Assembly (NCBI RefSeq): GCF_004402785.1
Contig: NZ_SOFP01000023.1
Location: 1-64,000 of the forward strand
Length of the DNA stretch: 64,000 bases
Direction of reading: 5' to 3'
From: Cryobacterium algoritolerans
Lineage (GTDB): Bacteria; Actinomycetota; Actinomycetes; Actinomycetales; Microbacteriaceae
Every line of letters begins with the position of its first letter. Within the stretch, counting starts at the first letter, position 1. The notes under the pieces are model-generated. The model saw only the letters and a program-made list of their open reading frames with translations. It had not been told where the DNA came from and ran no database searches. Shown here in pieces: positions 15,009 through 33,418 of the stretch. A program made the position numbers and the translations under genes.

Positions 15009-16367
15009 ATGTCAGCACCCACCACGTCGGCCACCCCTGTAACATCCGCGGCGCCCACGAACCCGCGCAGCCGGGTCGTGCTCGCCAGCCTCATCGGCAC
15101 GACCATCGAGTTCTACGACTTCTACGTTTACGCCACGGCCGCCGTTCTCGTCTTCCCGCACCTGTTCTTCCCCACCGGCAACGAGACCACGGCGCTGCTC
15201 GCGTCGTTCGCGGTCTTCGGCGCCGCCATGGTGGCCCGCCCGATCGGCGCCCTCGTCTTCGGCCACTTCGGCGACCGGAAGGGACGCAAGGCGACCCTGG
15301 TCGGCGCGTTGCTGACCATGGGCATCGCCACCTTCCTGATCGGGCTGCTGCCCACCTACCCCCAGGTCGGCTGGTTCGCCCCGCTGCTGCTCGTCGTGCT
15401 GCGGCTCGCCCAGGGCTTCGCGCTCGGCGGGGAGTGGAGCGGTGCGGCCCTGGTCGCCACCGAGAACGCGCCGGCCGGCAAACGGGCCTGGTACGGAACC
15501 TTCCCACAGGTGGGCGCCCCGCTCGGCTTCATCATCGCGAACGGCCTGTTCCTCGCGATCGCCCTTGCCCTGCCGTCCACCGATCCGACCCGTCCCTCCG
15601 ACGCGTTCCTCGAGTGGGCCTGGCGCATCCCGTTCCTGTTCTCGGCCGTGATGGTGATCGTCGGCCTCTGGGTGCGGCTGCGCCTGGTCGAGAGCGATGC
15701 GTTCACCAAGGTCGTCGCCGCCAAGCGGGTGGAGAAGCTGCCCCTGGCCGCGGTGTTCAAGTCGAACTGGCGCGAGCTGATTCTCGGCACCTTCATCATG
15801 CTGGCCACCTATGTGCTGTTCTACCTGATGACCACGTTCACGCTCGGCTACGGTCGCGCCGCGACGGATGCCCCGGTGCCCGGGCTCGGCTACAGCTACA
15901 ACAACTTCATCCTGATGATGATCGTCGGCGTGCTGTTCTTCGGGGTCTTCACCCTCGCCTCAGGACCGTGGGCTGACCGGCACGGCCGCCGCAAGACCCT
16001 GGTCATCGTGACCATCGCCATAATCGGGTTCGGCCTGCTGTTCGTGCCGCTGCTCGGGGCCGGCTTCGTGGGCGTGATGGTCTTCCTCATCGTCGGCTTC
16101 TCCCTGATGGGCATGACCTTCGGACCGATGGGCGCACTGCTGCCCGAGCTGTTCCCGACGAACGTGCGTTACACGGGTTCCGCGTTCGCCTACAACATGA
16201 GCTCGATCCTCGGCGCGGCCGTGGCCCCGTTCATCGCGATCTGGCTCTGGACGCTCGGTGGGGGTAGCCCGTTCTGGGTCGGCGTCTACCTGTCGGTGAT
16301 GGCCGTGCTCACGCTCGTCGCGCTGCTCGCCAGCCGCGAGACCCGCAACATCGACATCGAGGCGTAG
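15009..16367 (+). CDS. MFS transporter, metabolite:H+ symporter (MHS) type
   Basis: Inner-membrane proton symporter of 452 residues with about 12 hydrophobic segments. Family marks are GTTIEFYDFYVYATAA at the first helix, the cytoplasmic loop motif GHFGDRKGRKATL, and the LRLAQGFALGGEWSGA segment shared by shikimate, citrate and proline/betaine members. The ATG at 15009 was chosen over an upstream ATG at 14889 because the extra 40 residues are basic and lack a transporter signature. The substrate cannot be read from sequence; it stands alone between the rib operon and an ABC remnant. Confidence 0.85.
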   Translation: MSAPTTSATPVTSAAPTNPRSRVVLASLIGTTIEFYDFYVYATAAVLVFPHLFFPTGNETTALLASFAVFGAAMVARPIGALVFGHFGDRKGRKATLVGALLTMGIATFLIGLLPTYPQVGWFAPLLLVVLRLAQGFALGGEWSGAALVATENAPAGKRAWYGTFPQVGAPLGFIIANGLFLAIALALPSTDPTRPSDAFLEWAWRIPFLFSAVMVIVGLWVRLRLVESDAFTKVVAAKRVEKLPLAAVFKSNWRELILGTFIMLATYVLFYLMTTFTLGYGRAATDAPVPGLGYSYNNFILMMIVGVLFFGVFTLASGPWADRHGRRKTLVIVTIAIIGFGLLFVPLLGAGFVGVMVFLIVGFSLMGMTFGPMGALLPELFPTNVRYTGSAFAYNMSSILGAAVAPFIAIWLWTLGGGSPFWVGVYLSVMAVLTLVALLASRETRNIDIEA

Positions 16368-16393
16368 CTCGATCGAATGTCGCGGCCCTGGCC

Positions 16394-16472
16394 GTTGAGT
16401 TGCGCACAAAACACCTTCCCGCCTTCCCACGTCGTGGGAGGGTGTGGGAGGACATTTTGTGCGCAACTCAAC
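16394..16472. terminator. Nested long palindrome after the MHS transporter
   Basis: Perfect 18-base arms (16394-16411 GTTGAGTTGCGCACAAAA with 16455-16472) enclose a second hairpin of TCCCAC / GTGGGA type near 16425-16440. It is one of a set of long extragenic palindromes in this window and could act as a terminator. Confidence 0.65.
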
Positions 16473-16479
16473 CCTCGGC

Positions 16480-16834
16480 GGGTGGTGTCGACCAGGCCGC
16501 AGAGGATCATGGCCACGTGGTAGAGCACGTGCCAGAGCGGCAACGCCTGGGTCAGGTCCTGGATCGGCTGCGGGTAGAAGCTCAGCGGGCAGAAGCTCAG
16601 CGGGCAGAACGTGGGCGAGAACAGAACATCGGTGCGCGTGGACACCGCGCCGACCATACGCCTGGGCGTCGATTTGCCCGCCCCATCGGGCCCGAGGAGA
16701 CCGAATGACTCGCCGTCGGCAACCTCGAAGGAGACGCCGTCGACGGCGGCGAATTCCTGGTATTTTTTGGCGAGGTTCTCGGCGACAGTCACAGGCTCCG
16801 GCGCAGTTTCCCACTGGAGACGGCACGACCGCAA
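16480..16834 (-). pseudogene. ABC exporter remnant: ATPase start joined to permease end
   Basis: Reading leftward, the first part is the N-terminus of a drug/polysaccharide-exporter ATPase (AVDGVSFEVADGESFGLLGPDGAGKST, here with Asp where the Walker A loop normally has Asn). Right after Walker A the homology switches to the C-terminal segment of an ABC-2 permease (FSPTFCPL...SFYPQPIQDLTQALPLWHVL). Most of both genes is missing, so a large internal deletion must have joined them. A small tandem duplication (SFCPL repeated) lies at the junction. No functional product is expected. Confidence 0.7.
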
Positions 16835-16860
16835 CCGGCCGTTGCGGTTAGGCTCATTTG

Positions 16861-19260
16861 GTGAGCACCCCGATCAACAGTACGAACAGCACCAGCACGG
16901 CCGGCAGCCCCGGAGCCGCCCCGACCACCCGCCGGGCCCGCTTGGGTCGGCTGGGCCGTCGAACCGGGCCCGTGTCCGGCCCACGAGCGAAATTCAGCCA
17001 GCTCCTCCCCTACCTCCTCGAGCACAAGCGCGTGCTCAGCGTCGTGATCGTACTGAGCGTCCTCGGCGCCCTGGCCAGTCTGGCCCAGCCGCTGCTCGTG
17101 AGCCAGGTCATCACGGTCGTCCAGAAGGGAAACCCGCTCGGCGCCCTCGTCTGGGGCCTGATCGCCCTCGTCGTCGTCTCCGGTCTGATCAGCGGTTACC
17201 AGCACTACCTCTTGCAGCGCACCGGCGAGGGCGTGGTGCTCTCCAGCCGACGCAAGCTGATCGGCCGGATGCTGCGCCTCCCGATCAGCGAATTCGACAC
17301 CCGCCGCACCGGGGACCTCGTCTCCCGGGTCGGCTCCGACACGACCCTTCTGCGGGCGGTGCTCACCCAGGGACTCGTCGAAGCGATCGGCGGATCGCTC
17401 ACCTTCCTCGGCGCGCTGATCGCGATGCTCGTCATCGACCCGGTGTTGCTCGGGCTGACCGTGCTGGTGATCGCGGCATCCGTGGTCACGGTGACCCTGC
17501 TCTCACAGCGGATCCGGGTGGCCAGCCTCGCGGCACAGGTGAAGGTCGGCGACCTGGCCGCCAGCGTGGAGCGGGCCATCAGCGCGGTGCGCACGGTGCG
17601 CGCCTCCAATGCGACCGACCGGGAGATCGCCGCGGTGGAGGAAGACGCCGTCGGCGCGTGGAAGATGGGCATCCAGGTCGCGAAGATCTCCGCCCTGGTC
17701 GTTCCGATCGCCGGGATCGCCATGCAGGTGTCGTTCCTCGTCGTGCTCGGCGTCGGTGGTTTCCGGGTGGCGAGCGGAACCATCACGGTCGCGAACCTGA
17801 TCGCGTTCATCCTCTTCCTGTTCCTGATGATCGTGCCGCTCGGCCAGGCGTTCGGGGCGATCACATCGGTGAATTCAGCGCTCGGCGCCCTTGGCCGGAT
17901 TCAGGAGATCATCGACCTGCCCGCTGAGGACCAGTTTGACCGCGACATCGCCCCGTTGGCGATCACCGTCGGCGCGGCCAACGAATCGGTGCGACCGGAT
18001 GCCCCGGCGATCTCCTTCGAGGACGTGCACTTCAGCTATGCGGTCGCCGCGGAGGTCGTACCCGACGCCGTCGACGCTGTGCCGTCCGTACCGTCCGTGC
18101 CGTCCGTGCTCGAGACCGATGTCGCGTCACCGGTCCTCCGTGCGGCCGTGCTCGCCGAGCCTGACCTTCTCGCGGCCGATCTCGCGGCCGATCTCGCGGC
18201 GGCGGCGGCGGCTGGTGCCTCGACCGTTACCTCGGCCCCGGCGGCCCTGGACACGGCCACCGGCGTGGACGGCCGCACGCATCGGCTGCCGACGGCCACC
18301 GACCTGTTCGGCGCGATCCCGCCCGACGACCTTGACCCGACCGGTACCGCAGCCCCGACCGAAGGCTTCGATGCCTCGCCGCCAGCCGCGAACTCCGCTG
18401 GTGGACCGGCCGTCGCTACCGGTAAAGCTGCCGTGTCCGCGGCGGCACCCACAGCCTTGACTGCGGCTGTTCTCGTGCCCTCGGCGGTTCCCACGGCTGG
18501 CCCCGCGCCGGCCCCCATTCCCACGGCTGAGGCCACGCCGGCCAGCGTCCCCGCGGCCACGCTCGAGACCGCCGAGCCTCGTCCGGTGCTCCGCGGGGTC
18601 TCCTTCAGTGCCCAGCGCGGGCTGCGCACAGCCCTGGTCGGACCATCCGGCGCCGGCAAGAGCACGATCCTCGCCCTGATCGAGCGGTTCTACGACCCGA
18701 ACGCCGGCGTTGTGCGGCTCGGCGGGCTGGACATCCGCACCCTGGACCGCACGGCCCTGCGCTCGCAGATCGGCTACGTCGAGCAGGACGCGCCCGTGCT
18801 CGCCGGGTCGCTGCGCGACAATCTCACCCTGGCCACGCCGGATGCAACCGACGAGGAATGCATCGCCGTGCTGCACGCCGTCAACCTCGGTGAGGTGCTC
18901 GACCGCGACCCGGCGGGGCTCGGCGCGGCGGTCGGCGAGTCCGGCGTCATGCTGTCCGGCGGCGAACGCCAGCGCCTCGCGATCGCCAGGGCGCTGCTCG
19001 CGGCACCGCCGATCCTGCTGCTTGACGAATCCACGTCCAGCCTCGACGGGGTCAACGAGCAGATGATGCGGGCCGCGATCGACGCCGTCGCCGTGAACCG
19101 CACGCTGATCGTGATCGCGCACCGGCTCTCGACCGTGGTCGACTCCGACCAGATCGTGGTGCTCGACCACGGCCAGGTCATCGGCACCGGCACCCACTCC
19201 GAACTCGTGGCCTCCACGCCGCTCTACCGCGAGCTCGCCAAGCACCAGCTCCTCGTCTAA
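16861..19260 (+). CDS. ABC exporter (fused membrane and ATPase domains) with a large low-complexity insert
   Basis: Type IV ABC half-exporter of 800 residues. After a Ser/Thr/Arg-rich N-terminus, six transmembrane helices occupy about 45-335. The nucleotide-binding domain starts with ISFEDVHFSY near residue 390 but is then interrupted by about 180 residues rich in Ala, Pro, Val and Thr. It resumes at RPVLRGVSF and continues with Walker A VGPSGAGKST, signature MLSGGERQRLAIARALL and Walker B ILLLDESTSSLD. All catalytic motifs are intact. The GTG at 16861 is chosen; a TTG lies just before it. The substrate is unknown. Confidence 0.88.
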   Translation: MSTPINSTNSTSTAGSPGAAPTTRRARLGRLGRRTGPVSGPRAKFSQLLPYLLEHKRVLSVVIVLSVLGALASLAQPLLVSQVITVVQKGNPLGALVWGLIALVVVSGLISGYQHYLLQRTGEGVVLSSRRKLIGRMLRLPISEFDTRRTGDLVSRVGSDTTLLRAVLTQGLVEAIGGSLTFLGALIAMLVIDPVLLGLTVLVIAASVVTVTLLSQRIRVASLAAQVKVGDLAASVERAISAVRTVRASNATDREIAAVEEDAVGAWKMGIQVAKISALVVPIAGIAMQVSFLVVLGVGGFRVASGTITVANLIAFILFLFLMIVPLGQAFGAITSVNSALGALGRIQEIIDLPAEDQFDRDIAPLAITVGAANESVRPDAPAISFEDVHFSYAVAAEVVPDAVDAVPSVPSVPSVLETDVASPVLRAAVLAEPDLLAADLAADLAAAAAAGASTVTSAPAALDTATGVDGRTHRLPTATDLFGAIPPDDLDPTGTAAPTEGFDASPPAANSAGGPAVATGKAAVSAAAPTALTAAVLVPSAVPTAGPAPAPIPTAEATPASVPAATLETAEPRPVLRGVSFSAQRGLRTALVGPSGAGKSTILALIERFYDPNAGVVRLGGLDIRTLDRTALRSQIGYVEQDAPVLAGSLRDNLTLATPDATDEECIAVLHAVNLGEVLDRDPAGLGAAVGESGVMLSGGERQRLAIARALLAAPPILLLDESTSSLDGVNEQMMRAAIDAVAVNRTLIVIAHRLSTVVDSDQIVVLDHGQVIGTGTHSELVASTPLYRELAKHQLLV
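18040..18577 (+). repeat. Low-complexity insert inside the ABC exporter ATPase domain
   Basis: In-frame stretch of about 540 bases between the first beta strand and the RPVLRGVSF strand of the nucleotide-binding domain, which are normally only a few residues apart. It contains short tandem repeats such as ccgtcc(g/a)tg near 18080 and CGGCCGATCTCG near 18175. The encoded segment is almost free of aromatic residues. Confidence 0.7.
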
Positions 19261-30409: not shown

Positions 30410-31059
30410 TCCATCGAGGTCGTTGTCGTGGTGCCGAGAGCCCCGGAGGCGAGGCCGAGTTCGTGTTCGGCCACGGTGCGCACGAGCCCGCGCAGGGATC
30501 CGGCGTGGCCGTAGCGCACGACGGCGTGGGCGTTCAGCCCGTCGATGATGCCGAGCAGCTGCCAGGCGACCGCATCGGGGTCGTCGACGGTGAACTCGCC
30601 GGCGGCGACACCTGAGCGCAGAAGGCCGGAGACGAAGGCCTGCCAGGCATCCATTTGCACGCCCACCTCGATGGCCAGGGCGGTATTGCGCCGGCCAAAG
30701 CTCCAGGCGTCGAGCCAGAGGGCGGTGACAGGGCTGCGGTCCGGCCCGAGCAGGGAGTCGATCAGGGCGCCGAGCGCCGCGACCTGGCGTGCGCACGACG
30801 CCAGTTCCTCGGCGACCTCGCCGATTTCAGCCGCAACGATGGCGGCGAAGGTGTCGGCGACCAGCACATCCATGCTCGGCTGGTAGTGGCTGACCAGCGC
30901 GGGAGTCACCCCGATCCGGGCGGCGACGCCGCGCAGGGTGATGCCGGCCAGACCGTCGGCCAGGGCAATCTCCCGCGCGGCCGCGGCGACCTCGGCCGCA
31001 CGGTCGGCCGGCGACTTGCGGCGGGCGCCTGGCCGAGGATCGCTCTGGACGGTTGACAT
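30406..31059 (-). CDS. TetR/BetI-type transcriptional regulator beside the agmatine genes
   Basis: 217-residue repressor. The helix-turn-helix is at about 25-65 (ALADGLAGITLRGVAARIGVTPALVSHY), followed by a BetI-like C-terminal ligand domain. The ATG at 31059 follows GAGGT. It is divergent from aguB-aguA with a clear palindrome between, so it probably represses agmatine catabolism and itself. The TAG lies inside the fbp iron box, so transcripts of this gene run towards the fbpA promoter. Confidence 0.85.
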   Translation of the reverse strand: MSTVQSDPRPGARRKSPADRAAEVAAAAREIALADGLAGITLRGVAARIGVTPALVSHYQPSMDVLVADTFAAIVAAEIGEVAEELASCARQVAALGALIDSLLGPDRSPVTALWLDAWSFGRRNTALAIEVGVQMDAWQAFVSGLLRSGVAAGEFTVDDPDAVAWQLLGIIDGLNAHAVVRYGHAGSLRGLVRTVAEHELGLASGALGTTTTTSMD

Positions 31060-31094
31060 GGGACCTCAGTGTATATAGCTTTGCTTCTACCTTG

Positions 31095-31110
31095 TTGATC
31101 ATGCGATCAA
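31095..31110. promoter_or_regulatory. Palindromic operator TTGATC-N4-GATCAA
   Basis: Six-base perfect arms with a four-base centre, midway between the TetR gene and aguB. Size and symmetry fit a TetR dimer site. It lies 30 bases before the aguB start, where bound repressor would block transcription. Confidence 0.65.
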
Positions 31111-31139
31111 TTAACCCTCGCAGCCTCACCGGAGATCTC

Positions 31140-32306
31140 ATGCGCCTCATCCCTGCCCCCGACATCGCCGTCCCGCTCACCCGCGTCAGCCCCGAGGCCG
31201 CCGCCCCGCTCCGGGTCGCACTCGTGCAGCACCGGTGGCAGGCCGACCCGGCGGCGCTCACCGGGGAGCTGGCCGACGGCATCCGTCTCGCCGCAGCGGA
31301 GGGTGCGAAGGTGGTGTTCCTGCCCGAGCTCACCCTGTCCCGTTACCCGGGAAACGAGCGGGCAACGGGTGTCCCCAAGCTCGGCGCCGAGGATCTGCTG
31401 ACCGGACCGACGTTCGCGTTCGCGGCCGCGCAGGCGCGCGAACACGGCATCGTCGTGCACGCCTCGCTCTACGAACGCCCGGACGACGACGACACCCCGG
31501 CCGACCCGCGCGGCTACAACACGGCCATCCTCGTCTCGCCGGCCGGCGCGCTGCTCGGCCGCACGCGCAAGCTGCACATCCCGGTCACCGAGGGCTACTA
31601 CGAGGACACCTGGTTCCGGCCGGGCCCGGCCGAGGACGCCTACCCGGTCTACGCACCGGACGAGCTCGATGGTGCGCGCCTGGGCCTGCCGACCTGCTGG
31701 GACGAGTGGTTCCCCGAGGTGTCCCGGCTCTACGGCCTCGCCGGCGCGCAGCTGCTGGTCTACCCGACGGCGATCGGCTCAGAGCCGGGGTTCCCGGCCT
31801 TCGACACCCAACCGATCTGGCAGCACGTGATCGTGGCCAACGGCATCACCAGCGGCCTGTTCATGGTGGTGCCGAACCGGCACGGCGACGAGGGCGACCT
31901 GACCTTCTACGGCTCGTCCTTCATCTCCGACCCCTACGGCCGCGTGCTCGCACAGGCGCCGCGGGACGAGTCCGTCGTGCTGGTCGCCGACCTCGACCTG
32001 GCCCAGCGCGAGGAGTGGCTCGCGCTGTTCCCGTTCCTCGGCACCCGCCGGCCGGACAGCTATGCCGGTCTGACCGCGCCGGTCGACCCGGCGCGCCCGT
32101 TCGGCGCGACGGGGTTCGCCGCAGGTTCCGCCGTGGATTCCGCCGCCGTTTCCGCCGCCGCTTCGGTCGCCGCTTCGGTCGCCGGTTCCGCCGCCGCTTC
32201 CGCCGCCGCTTCGGTCGCCGCTTCGGTCGCCGGTTCGGTCGCCGGTTCGGTCGCCGGTTCCGCCGCCGCTTCGGTCGCCGCTTCGCCGAACGAGGCACGG
32301 TCGTGA
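31140..32306 (+). CDS. aguB: N-carbamoylputrescine amidase (nitrilase superfamily) with a repetitive tail
   Basis: Hydrolyses N-carbamoylputrescine to putrescine, CO2 and ammonia. The catalytic triad is visible: Glu63 in LPELTLSRYP, Lys144 in RTRKLHIPV and Cys186 in PTCWDEWFPE. The core ends near residue 320 with FLGTRRPDSYAGL. After it come about 65 residues made almost only of Ala, Ser, Val and Gly repeats, absent from usual family members of about 290-300 residues. The ATG at 31140 has GGAG upstream. The TGA overlaps the aguA GTG. Confidence 0.9.
   Translation: MRLIPAPDIAVPLTRVSPEAAAPLRVALVQHRWQADPAALTGELADGIRLAAAEGAKVVFLPELTLSRYPGNERATGVPKLGAEDLLTGPTFAFAAAQAREHGIVVHASLYERPDDDDTPADPRGYNTAILVSPAGALLGRTRKLHIPVTEGYYEDTWFRPGPAEDAYPVYAPDELDGARLGLPTCWDEWFPEVSRLYGLAGAQLLVYPTAIGSEPGFPAFDTQPIWQHVIVANGITSGLFMVVPNRHGDEGDLTFYGSSFISDPYGRVLAQAPRDESVVLVADLDLAQREEWLALFPFLGTRRPDSYAGLTAPVDPARPFGATGFAAGSAVDSAAVSAAASVAASVAGSAAASAAASVAASVAGSVAGSVAGSAAASVAASPNEARS
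32110..32296 (+). repeat. Minisatellite at the 3' end of aguB
   Basis: Nested six- and nine-base units (gccgct, tcggtc, gccggttcc) repeated through about 185 bases, encoding AASVAAS/VAGS-type repeats. The frame is kept to the stop. It probably arose by slippage and could vary in length between strains. Confidence 0.85.
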
Positions 32307-33418
32307 CGTGGCGGATGCCGGCCGAGACGGCACCGCAGGACCGAGTCTGGATGGCGTTCCCCGCGTCGGGCTACACGCTGGGCAACGACGCCGGCTCGGC
32401 CGCGGAGGCACGTCAGGCCTGGGCCGACGTGGCCCACGCCGTGCTCGAGTTCGAGCCCGTCACGATGGTCGTCGATCCGGCCGAGGCCGCCGTGGCCCGC
32501 CGGTACCTGTCCGGGGCGGTCGAGATCATCGAGGCACCGCTCGACGACGCGTGGATGCGCGACATCGGTCCGAGCTTCGTGCTCGACGAGGACGACCCCG
32601 GCGCTGGGGAACGCGGCGCGGTCGAACCCGGCGCGGGGGAGCCCAGCGCTGTCGGACCCGGCGCGGGGGAGCCCAGCGCTGTCGAACTCGGCGCGGTCGA
32701 CTGGACCTTCAACGGCTGGGGCGGCCAGGACTGGGCCCGCTGGGCCAAGGACGCCGAGATCGGCCGCCTGGTCACAGGGGCATCGGGGGCCACCGGCATC
32801 CCCTCGCTGCTCGTGAACGAGGGCGGGGGCATCCAGGTCGACGGGCTGGGCACGGTGCTGGCGACCCTGAGCGTGCAGCTGGACCCGGGGCGCAACCCGC
32901 AGGCCGACCGCGCCACGGTCGAGGCCGAATTGGCGCGCACGATCGGGGCCACGCACGTGGTCTGGCTGCCGCGCGGGCTCACCCGCGACCAGGAGCGTTA
33001 CGGCACCTGGGGCCACGTGGACATCGTCGCAGCGATCCCCTCCCCCGGCATGCTGCTGGTGCACTCCCAGGACGACCCGGCACATCCCGACTATCCGGTC
33101 ACCCGGGAGCTGCGCCGGATGCTGGCCGAGTCGACGGATGCCGCGGGCAGCCCCTGGACCATCATCGACCTGCCCGCCCCGGCCACGCTCTCCGATTCGG
33201 AGGGGTTTGTGGACTACAGCTACGTCAACCACCTCGTGGTGAACGGCGGCGTGATCGCCTGCAGCTTCGGCGAGAAACGCGCCGACGAGGCCGCACGGGA
33301 GATCCTCGCCGCGGCCTACCCCGGCCGGAGTGTGATCGCGGTCGAGGCCAGGCCGTTGTTCGCACGAGGCGGCGGCATCCACTGCATCACGCAGCAGCAG
33401 CCGTCCGTCCCGGCGTGA
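32303..33418 (+). CDS. aguA: Agmatine deiminase with a repetitive insert
   Basis: Converts agmatine to N-carbamoylputrescine and ammonia; pairs with AguB. The 371 residues contain WMAFPASGYTLG, the active-site loop APLDDAWMRDIGPSFV, NEGGGIQVDG, and the nucleophile Cys361 in GGGIHCITQQQP. Between SFVLDEDD and DWTFNGWGG about 30 residues of GAGEPSAV-type repeats are inserted where relatives have a short loop. The GTG at 32303 overlaps the aguB stop. Confidence 0.92.
   Translation: MTWRMPAETAPQDRVWMAFPASGYTLGNDAGSAAEARQAWADVAHAVLEFEPVTMVVDPAEAAVARRYLSGAVEIIEAPLDDAWMRDIGPSFVLDEDDPGAGERGAVEPGAGEPSAVGPGAGEPSAVELGAVDWTFNGWGGQDWARWAKDAEIGRLVTGASGATGIPSLLVNEGGGIQVDGLGTVLATLSVQLDPGRNPQADRATVEAELARTIGATHVVWLPRGLTRDQERYGTWGHVDIVAAIPSPGMLLVHSQDDPAHPDYPVTRELRRMLAESTDAAGSPWTIIDLPAPATLSDSEGFVDYSYVNHLVVNGGVIACSFGEKRADEAAREILAAAYPGRSVIAVEARPLFARGGGIHCITQQQPSVPA
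32596..32699 (+). repeat. Tandem repeat inside aguA
   Basis: Two near-identical 30-base units containing gcgcgggggagcccagcgct, plus degenerate flanking copies. They encode the acidic GAGEPSAV segment inserted into the enzyme. Frame is preserved. Confidence 0.8.

Follow-up and report, generated by a model that had tools for sequence, protein, structure and literature searches.

How can the ATPase domain of an ABC exporter accommodate some 180 residues of low-complexity sequence and still keep its catalytic motifs? This question is raised by a predicted exporter gene in the window, by which we mean the whole stretch of 64,000 nucleotides of Cryobacterium algoritolerans DNA analysed here. The window lies on contig C76 of a draft assembly (87 contigs, 3.7 Mb), and its nearest named relatives are Cryobacterium sp. 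MP_M3 and PH31-AA6. The exporter ORF is read without an internal stop, and its product scored 131.2 bits with Pfam ABC_membrane (curated cut-off 28) and, at residues 578-727, 101.9 bits with ABC_tran (cut-off 25), which identifies both a transmembrane domain (TMD) and a nucleotide-binding domain (NBD). The protein, whose function is predicted from these matches, fits the class of half-transporters composed of these two domains and presumably acts as a homodimer. Membership in MsbA_rel (TIGR02204), the best of the 182 NCBIfam families matched, was rejected, as the 380.2 bits obtained are below the curated cut-off of 780.4. The catalytic motifs are intact, as the sequence-only reading of this DNA had stated: GPSGAGKST, Q643, LSGGE, E724 and H755, which we take to be Walker A, a further motif residue, the ABC signature, the Walker B glutamate and the H-loop, are all present, and each is conserved in 90% or more of 50 aligned rows.

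The insert starts directly after the A-loop tyrosine Tyr394 and ends before Pro576, where PVLRGVSF opens the next strand, so that beta1 is followed by the insert and then by beta2 and Walker A (Table 1). The boundaries are within two codons of those read from the letters alone (18040-18577), and the placing between beta1 and beta2 agrees with the strands predicted by AlphaFold2 at residues 385-393 and 576-585. The proposed in-frame run of about 180 low-complexity residues in an open ORF was measured at 181 residues, containing 29% Ala and 14% Pro besides Val and Thr (10% each), with an entropy of 3.20 bits compared to 3.60-3.88 bits in 181-residue windows of the remaining protein, the two parts of which were joined for this purpose. 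Low complexity applies to the insert overall but not uniformly, as short conserved segments are found within it. Compared to the usual 4-residue turn outside Microbacteriaceae, the net gain is about 177 residues, and no Pfam family matched residues 376-577 at E 0.001.

Table 1 Features of the predicted exporter gene and of its insert (positions in the window).
Feature	Positions	Strand	Residues and remarks	Basis
Predicted ABC exporter half-transporter (TMD + NBD)	16858..19260	+	800 aa; start TTG as listed, putative	
Transmembrane region, ABC_membrane	17041..17841	+	62-328	Pfam
NBD strand beta1, ending in A-loop Tyr394	18010..18039	+	predicted 385-393	loop measurement, AlphaFold2
Insert	18040..18582	+	395-575; 181 aa, Ala/Pro/Val/Thr-rich, net charge -15	sequence, alignment
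9-bp tandem repeat, x3.4	18079..18109	+	VPSVPSVPSV	repeat search
Wider conserved segment m1, PSVLETDVASPVLRAAVLAEPDLLAADLAA	18100..18189	+	415-444	alignment, pN/pS
Core motif AEPDLLAADLAADL	18154..18195	+	433-446; kept in 15/15 long-loop sequences	alignment, AlphaFold2
12-bp tandem repeat, x2.8	18168..18200	+	overlaps and lengthens the motif helix	repeat search
Second conserved segment HRLPTATDLFGAIP	18280..18321	+	475-488	alignment, pN/pS
Strand beta2	18583..18612	+	predicted 576-585	AlphaFold2
Walker A GPSGAGKST	18640..18666	+	595-603	alignment; sequence reading
ABC signature LSGGE	18952..18966	+	699-703	alignment; sequence reading

Since the insert has about 75% G+C and 238 of 2000 base-shuffled copies stayed open, the open frame alone is weak evidence for coding, and the coding status follows from comparison with relatives that keep the frame. 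In 78 of 80 related loci from named genomes the whole insert lies in a single frame, and in the other two (L018, L021) the sequence runs off the contig end inside the insert. The contrary case that had been envisaged, relatives in which the protein is split into two genes, was found at none of the 80 related loci. In three relatives the draft contig ends inside the insert (L018, L021) or directly behind it (L020, 85 aa), and repeats may hinder assembly here; the 329-residue insert of another genome (L111) is embedded in a contig of 4.23 Mb. An antisense ORF of 209 aa (18036-18665, minus strand) was dismissed as a by-product of high G+C: of 11 long-loop sequences, 10 have at least one open antisense frame over the insert, and the frames concerned vary between them.

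A family search with the transmembrane part alone as query gave matches at E 1e-100 in 184 of 199 Microbacteriaceae genomes and in 79 of 85 genera, i.e. the exporter is nearly universal in this family. The loop between beta1 and beta2 was measured in 187 loci, which, with identical inserts counted once, yielded 158 distinct inserts: 153 inside Microbacteriaceae (the window's genome being L091), 4 outside and 1 from a second exporter copy. Lengths beyond the first 80 loci were obtained by a scripted A-loop pattern and an assumed distance of 19 residues from beta2 to Walker A, so that single values may deviate by one or two residues; L018 and L021 were left out of the length counts, and L020 also of the distinct-insert set. 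Inside the family, the 153 distinct inserts, that of the window among them, cover lengths of 3-329 residues, with 74-329 residues in a long-loop Cryobacterium group (11 distinct, to which the window adds 181 and L020 adds 85), 27-80 in other Cryobacterium (34 distinct) and 3-91 in other Microbacteriaceae (107 distinct, without L091). Orthologues with a turn of 3-9 residues were found as well (L057, L188, L198). The longest loop measured, with 329 residues, belongs to the orthologue L111 (G005:C1:2681000-2686500), and L116 (G023:C1:1493000-1496500) is a second exporter copy in one genome of the genus, about 50% identical in the TMD and with a turn of 14 residues. Alignment with related exporters thus shows an insert that is variable in length (3-329 aa) and not strain-specific; the earlier description of it as unusual holds for its length but not in the sense of a strain oddity, as it lies near the upper end of a family-wide range. 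The insert is a real, unusually long example of a hypervariable loop of the whole family.

Outside the family, the search gave 30 matches, of which 20 yielded loci, three of these (L224, L225, L228) unparsed; of the 10 without a new locus, three (G034, G038, G039) were already represented and seven were left out. Of 20 distinct homologues from other families of the same order, eighteen have a turn of 4-10 residues. The other two (L226, L229) belong to a single genus and have low-complexity stretches of 40-42 residues at this position, which were probably gained independently. Within the window's own genome, nine other ABC ATPase loci were inspected, and all seven that could be parsed have a short turn at this position. 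Among Microbacteriaceae orthologues, the net charge is negative in 149 of the 150 distinct inserts of at least 14 residues; these are related by descent and do not amount to 150 independent facts. Between genera, the letters of the insert are largely replaced while the acidity persists.

The contrast between loop and core is evident from the comparison of the window with its nearest relative, L011. The core proteins are 99% identical over 579 columns, whereas the inserts differ by 36 residues (181 versus 145 aa). The core (TMD and NBD) has a pN of 0.002 and a pS of 0.20, as opposed to a pN of 0.39 and a pS of 0.52 in the alignable non-motif part of the insert; the exporter core is under strong purifying selection. 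Apart from the two tandem repeats in the window's insert, the same loop contains Gly-Ala peptide repeats in L017 and AAATPP repeats in L012. Repeat expansion was also seen in another enzyme of the window. The ORF 32306-33415 (plus strand), which we take to encode an agmatine deiminase-like protein, has 39 low-complexity residues, including a 30-bp tandem repeat, in a turn between WMRDIGPSF and VDWTFNGWG. This turn is 10 residues long in all six parsable relatives, which belong to the same genus; nine relatives were matched, of which L239 lacked the second anchor and L238 and L240 the first. Turns of this genome other than that of the exporter can thus also grow by in-frame repeats. The preceding ORF 31053-32306 (plus strand), presumably for a carbamoylputrescine amidase-like protein, ends in an Ala/Ser/Val tail of about 60 residues with a tandem array of 24, 36 and 60 bp at 32117-32288. 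Because of the tandem repeats in the insert and the repeat expansion in the other enzyme, the mechanism best supported for the growth of the loop is slippage in frame at a turn that tolerates it.

Within the insert, a segment of the form AEPDLxxADLAAxx is found in all 15 long-loop sequences (window, L011-L022, L024, L111). Six of its residues (Glu, Pro, Asp, Leu and two Ala) never vary, while each is encoded by two or three different codons among the 15 sequences. When near relatives were compared in seven pairs without overlap, the motif (14 codons) showed 23 synonymous and 11 nonsynonymous differences, compared to about 185 and 239 in the remaining insert of six of these pairs (Fisher one-sided p = 0.006); the test is rough, since low-complexity sequence had to be aligned with gaps and L018, L020 and L021, which are absent from the trees, occur in three of the pairs. 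The second conserved segment (HRLPTAxDLF) is common to the window, L011, L012 and L020 among 14 aligned long-loop rows, and L016-L019 and L022 have another retained segment, GRSAHTASDAELVAAENAM, with a pooled pN/pS of 0.10.

AlphaFold2 gave a pLDDT below 50 across most of the insert (residues 399-435, 453-516 and 518-571), with block values mostly between 26 and 42. The motif block 441-450 reached a mean of 70, and a helix at 437-453 is the only stretch of the insert predicted with moderate confidence; these values come from a whole-transporter model of low confidence (mean pLDDT 62.9, pTM 0.42), in which a low pLDDT serves as a proxy for disorder. The structure prediction that had been proposed as a check is thus in line with a disordered loop. 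As to its supposed position near the ATP site, predicted disorder does adjoin the A-loop, and a probable closeness is deduced from the A-loop tyrosine next to the insert.

Two further candidates for structured or shared elements were rejected. A helix in Leifsonia inserts was dropped, as the helices predicted by AlphaFold2 in the insert of the L049 NBD (68-77, 79-90) had a mean pLDDT of only 30-39. A common origin of the Leifsonia segment DVVAEAEAAAG, the TEAEKVVAEELGE helix and the Cryobacterium EPDLxxADLAA was discarded for the present because the respective position-specific matrices fail to recognise each other's sets above shuffled inserts. In six cross comparisons of the clade motif matrices against shuffled inserts, the median z was between -0.57 and 0.89, and 0-2 inserts per set of 8-16 reached p < 0.05. 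Applied to the 115 remaining inserts, the same matrices gave 19, 15 and 12 matches at p < 0.05 versus 6 expected, with a median z near 0; part of this excess arises because some Leifsonia inserts missed by the pattern fell into the remainder. With these motif models, no element common to the loops of Leifsonia, the TEAEK-bearing genera and Cryobacterium was found.

In a core DNA tree of 36 rows, from which the insert had been removed, the 12 long-loop rows need 2 label changes, where 10.2 would be expected if the labels were shuffled; this topology leaves room for a single origin of the long loop. The window clusters there with L011, L012 and L111. The locus L038, which has a 44-residue loop without the motif, stands at the base of the 12-row long-loop group in the core protein tree (support 80), in conflict with the core DNA tree, where it groups with Leifsonia. 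The core DNA tree leaves out L025, L039, L055 and L089, and both trees leave out L018, L020 and L021. Near the exporter, counterparts of the window's neighbours were found in flanks of up to 4 kb at 80 loci, namely genes which we assume to encode PEPCK (48 loci), an MFS transporter (37) and a mannosidase (25); a presumed riboflavin synthase gene stands beside the exporter in 22 of the 80 loci, and the upstream partner of that gene in 17. Because these flanking genes recur, the exporter gene keeps a stable chromosomal place in many relatives. In the window, a short ORF at 16286-16834 (minus strand) matches with its first 70-90 residues the start of an ABC ATPase whose gene precedes that of the exporter in many relatives (51 of 80 loci gave tblastn matches, some of them possibly to other ATPases). 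Past Walker A this ORF appears to continue as something else, so that it may be a deletion remnant; a 15-bp repeat lies at 16570-16609.

Starting from the observed site, frame, size range and tandem repeats of the loop, its fast turnover as against a frozen core, and the catalytic motifs, we favour, on balance, the explanation that the exporter turn tolerates insertions in Microbacteriaceae and that an acidic, mostly disordered loop drifts there by in-frame slippage and tandem duplication. The beta1-beta2 turn would have been replaced in this family by such a loop, its length would drift by slippage and duplication of G+C-rich codons, and the long-loop Cryobacterium group, including the window, would have let it reach 74-329 residues. 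Loops would be tolerated because the turn probably points to solvent, and both NBDs of the homodimer would carry a flexible acidic loop beside the A-loop and still dimerise. Selection on the loop might act mainly via solubility and acidity, and the AEPDL helix could be a short element under selection for docking, either on the transporter itself or on a partner. Drift is the best-supported explanation for most of the loop. On the other side, the HRLPTAxDLF and GRSAHTASDAELVAAENAM segments point to selection beyond what slippage and a single motif would entail, and it is not obvious how slippage could account for the near-absence of basic residues in the inserts.

The alternatives are not mutually exclusive with this explanation, and the confidence placed in them overlaps with that placed in it. 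By analogy to CFTR, a regulatory role of the loop is possible. In its specific form, namely a convergent bacterial counterpart of the CFTR regulatory insertion in which acidic disordered arms and the helix would touch the NBD dimer interface or the surface coupling TMD and NBD and so tune ATP-driven dimerisation, we consider it unlikely. The loop is found at the place of the CFTR insertion (accessible part of PMC5065228), removal of which alters the processing and currents of CFTR variants (accessible part of PMC7350234), and the conserved AEPDL helix and the persistent acidity fit such a role, but the motif was found only in one Cryobacterium group and no family-wide element was found, orthologues manage with a turn of 3-9 residues, and the accessible text of PMC5065228 could name no physiological function for the CFTR insertion itself.

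We give equally little credence to a wholly neutral loop, i.e. tolerated junk in which the motif is shared through recent descent only. The extreme drift in length, the repeats and the similar expansion in the agmatine deiminase-like ORF speak for this explanation, but it does not account for the relative shortage of nonsynonymous changes in the motif at variable synonymous sites, for the invariance of its six residues in spite of two or three codons each, or for the acidity of 149 of 150 inserts. Rather doubtful is the broader view that the whole family convergently carries a regulatory insertion, an acidic disordered loop at the position of the CFTR insertion, with length and helical motifs re-invented by clade so as to set the rate of ATP-driven NBD closure, and with Cryobacterium having the longest loop measured here (329 aa). 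Linear motifs are often clade-specific, and the short conserved hydrophobic and acidic segments in a disordered, clade-specific context would be in keeping with a tether for some partner in the cytosol (an enzyme delivering substrate, a chaperone or a scaffold, for instance) which would be recruited via the AEPDL helix and RLPTAxDLF, motifs that turn over between clades; the neighbouring genes (riboflavin, MFS, mannosidase, PEPCK) suggest no such partner, and we judge this idea improbable. Finally, an assembly error, gene fusion, intein or mobile element, which the contig ends inside and just behind the insert could suggest, is extremely unlikely in view of the 78 in-frame loci, the lack of split genes among all 80, the 329-residue version well inside a large contig and the absence of a Pfam match to residues 376-577 at E 0.001.

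This exporter samples 3-329 residues at one position in 153 distinct natural versions while its core is far more constant, a length series that could be used to measure the effect of a disordered loop on folding, ATPase activity and transport. The loop also illustrates a way in which an enzyme domain may acquire a disordered segment that holds a selected motif, and the presence of 181-329 probably disordered residues beside an ATP site would surprise a specialist. In the literature searched, mostly without subscription journals, no paper was found on a low-complexity or disordered NBD insertion in an actinobacterial ABC exporter, nor any joining Cryobacterium with a low-complexity insertion in an ABC transporter. 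Slippage and high G+C are named as drivers of length variability in low-complexity regions in the accessible part of PMC11285758. The insert resembles the slippage-grown regions of high-G+C genes described there in its tandem repeats and its length differences between species, but differs from them in lying inside a catalytic ATPase domain and in retaining a conserved motif.

The structural relatives of the exporter are half-transporters. BmrA (8qoe) was the first Foldseek match to the model, and among the best 60 of 452 sequence matches no bacterial protein ranked above BmrA; with VIA-align, the Atm1-type transporter 6pam_A (Z 28.7, rmsd 5.5, 432 aligned) and MsRv1273c/72c (9iqg_A; Z 28.3, rmsd 5.9, 436 aligned) were tied. 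Unlike the exporter, these proteins have chains of about 560-620 residues, too short for such an insert. CFTR was absent among the 50 rows listed in the VIA-align comparison, which is uninformative on relatedness.

In CFTR, the regulatory insertion directly follows the A-loop tryptophan. As far as the accessible parts of the sources go, this insertion (residues 404-435 of NBD1) lies, like the loop described here, between beta1 and beta2; the CFTR insertion is long, dynamic and unstructured in a crystal, and is near the NBD interface and the ATP site (PMC7350234, PMC5065228). It is described as lacking in the NBDs of other ABC transporters in the accessible part of PMC7350234. According to the accessible part of PMC5065228, beta1 and beta2 are joined by some 20-40 residues in the ABCG proteins ABCG2, ABCG5 and ABCG8, and the CFTR insertion is the only other loop to have been described at this location. 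The ABCG loops share with the exporter loop their place, a more than usual length and a probable mobility, but they are shorter and belong to the ABCG fold. The function of the CFTR insertion is disputed, since, in the accessible texts, PMC5065228 identifies no physiological function whereas PMC5290968 refers to studies on isolated domains which suggest that the phosphorylated insertion has an allosteric effect on the transmission interface. As 18 of 20 homologues outside the family have a turn of 4-10 residues, the exporter loop is probably independent of that of CFTR, a phosphoregulated channel with an insertion of 32 residues; the exporter, in contrast, is a bacterial half-transporter with 181 (up to 329) residues at this place, presumably in both NBDs of its homodimer.
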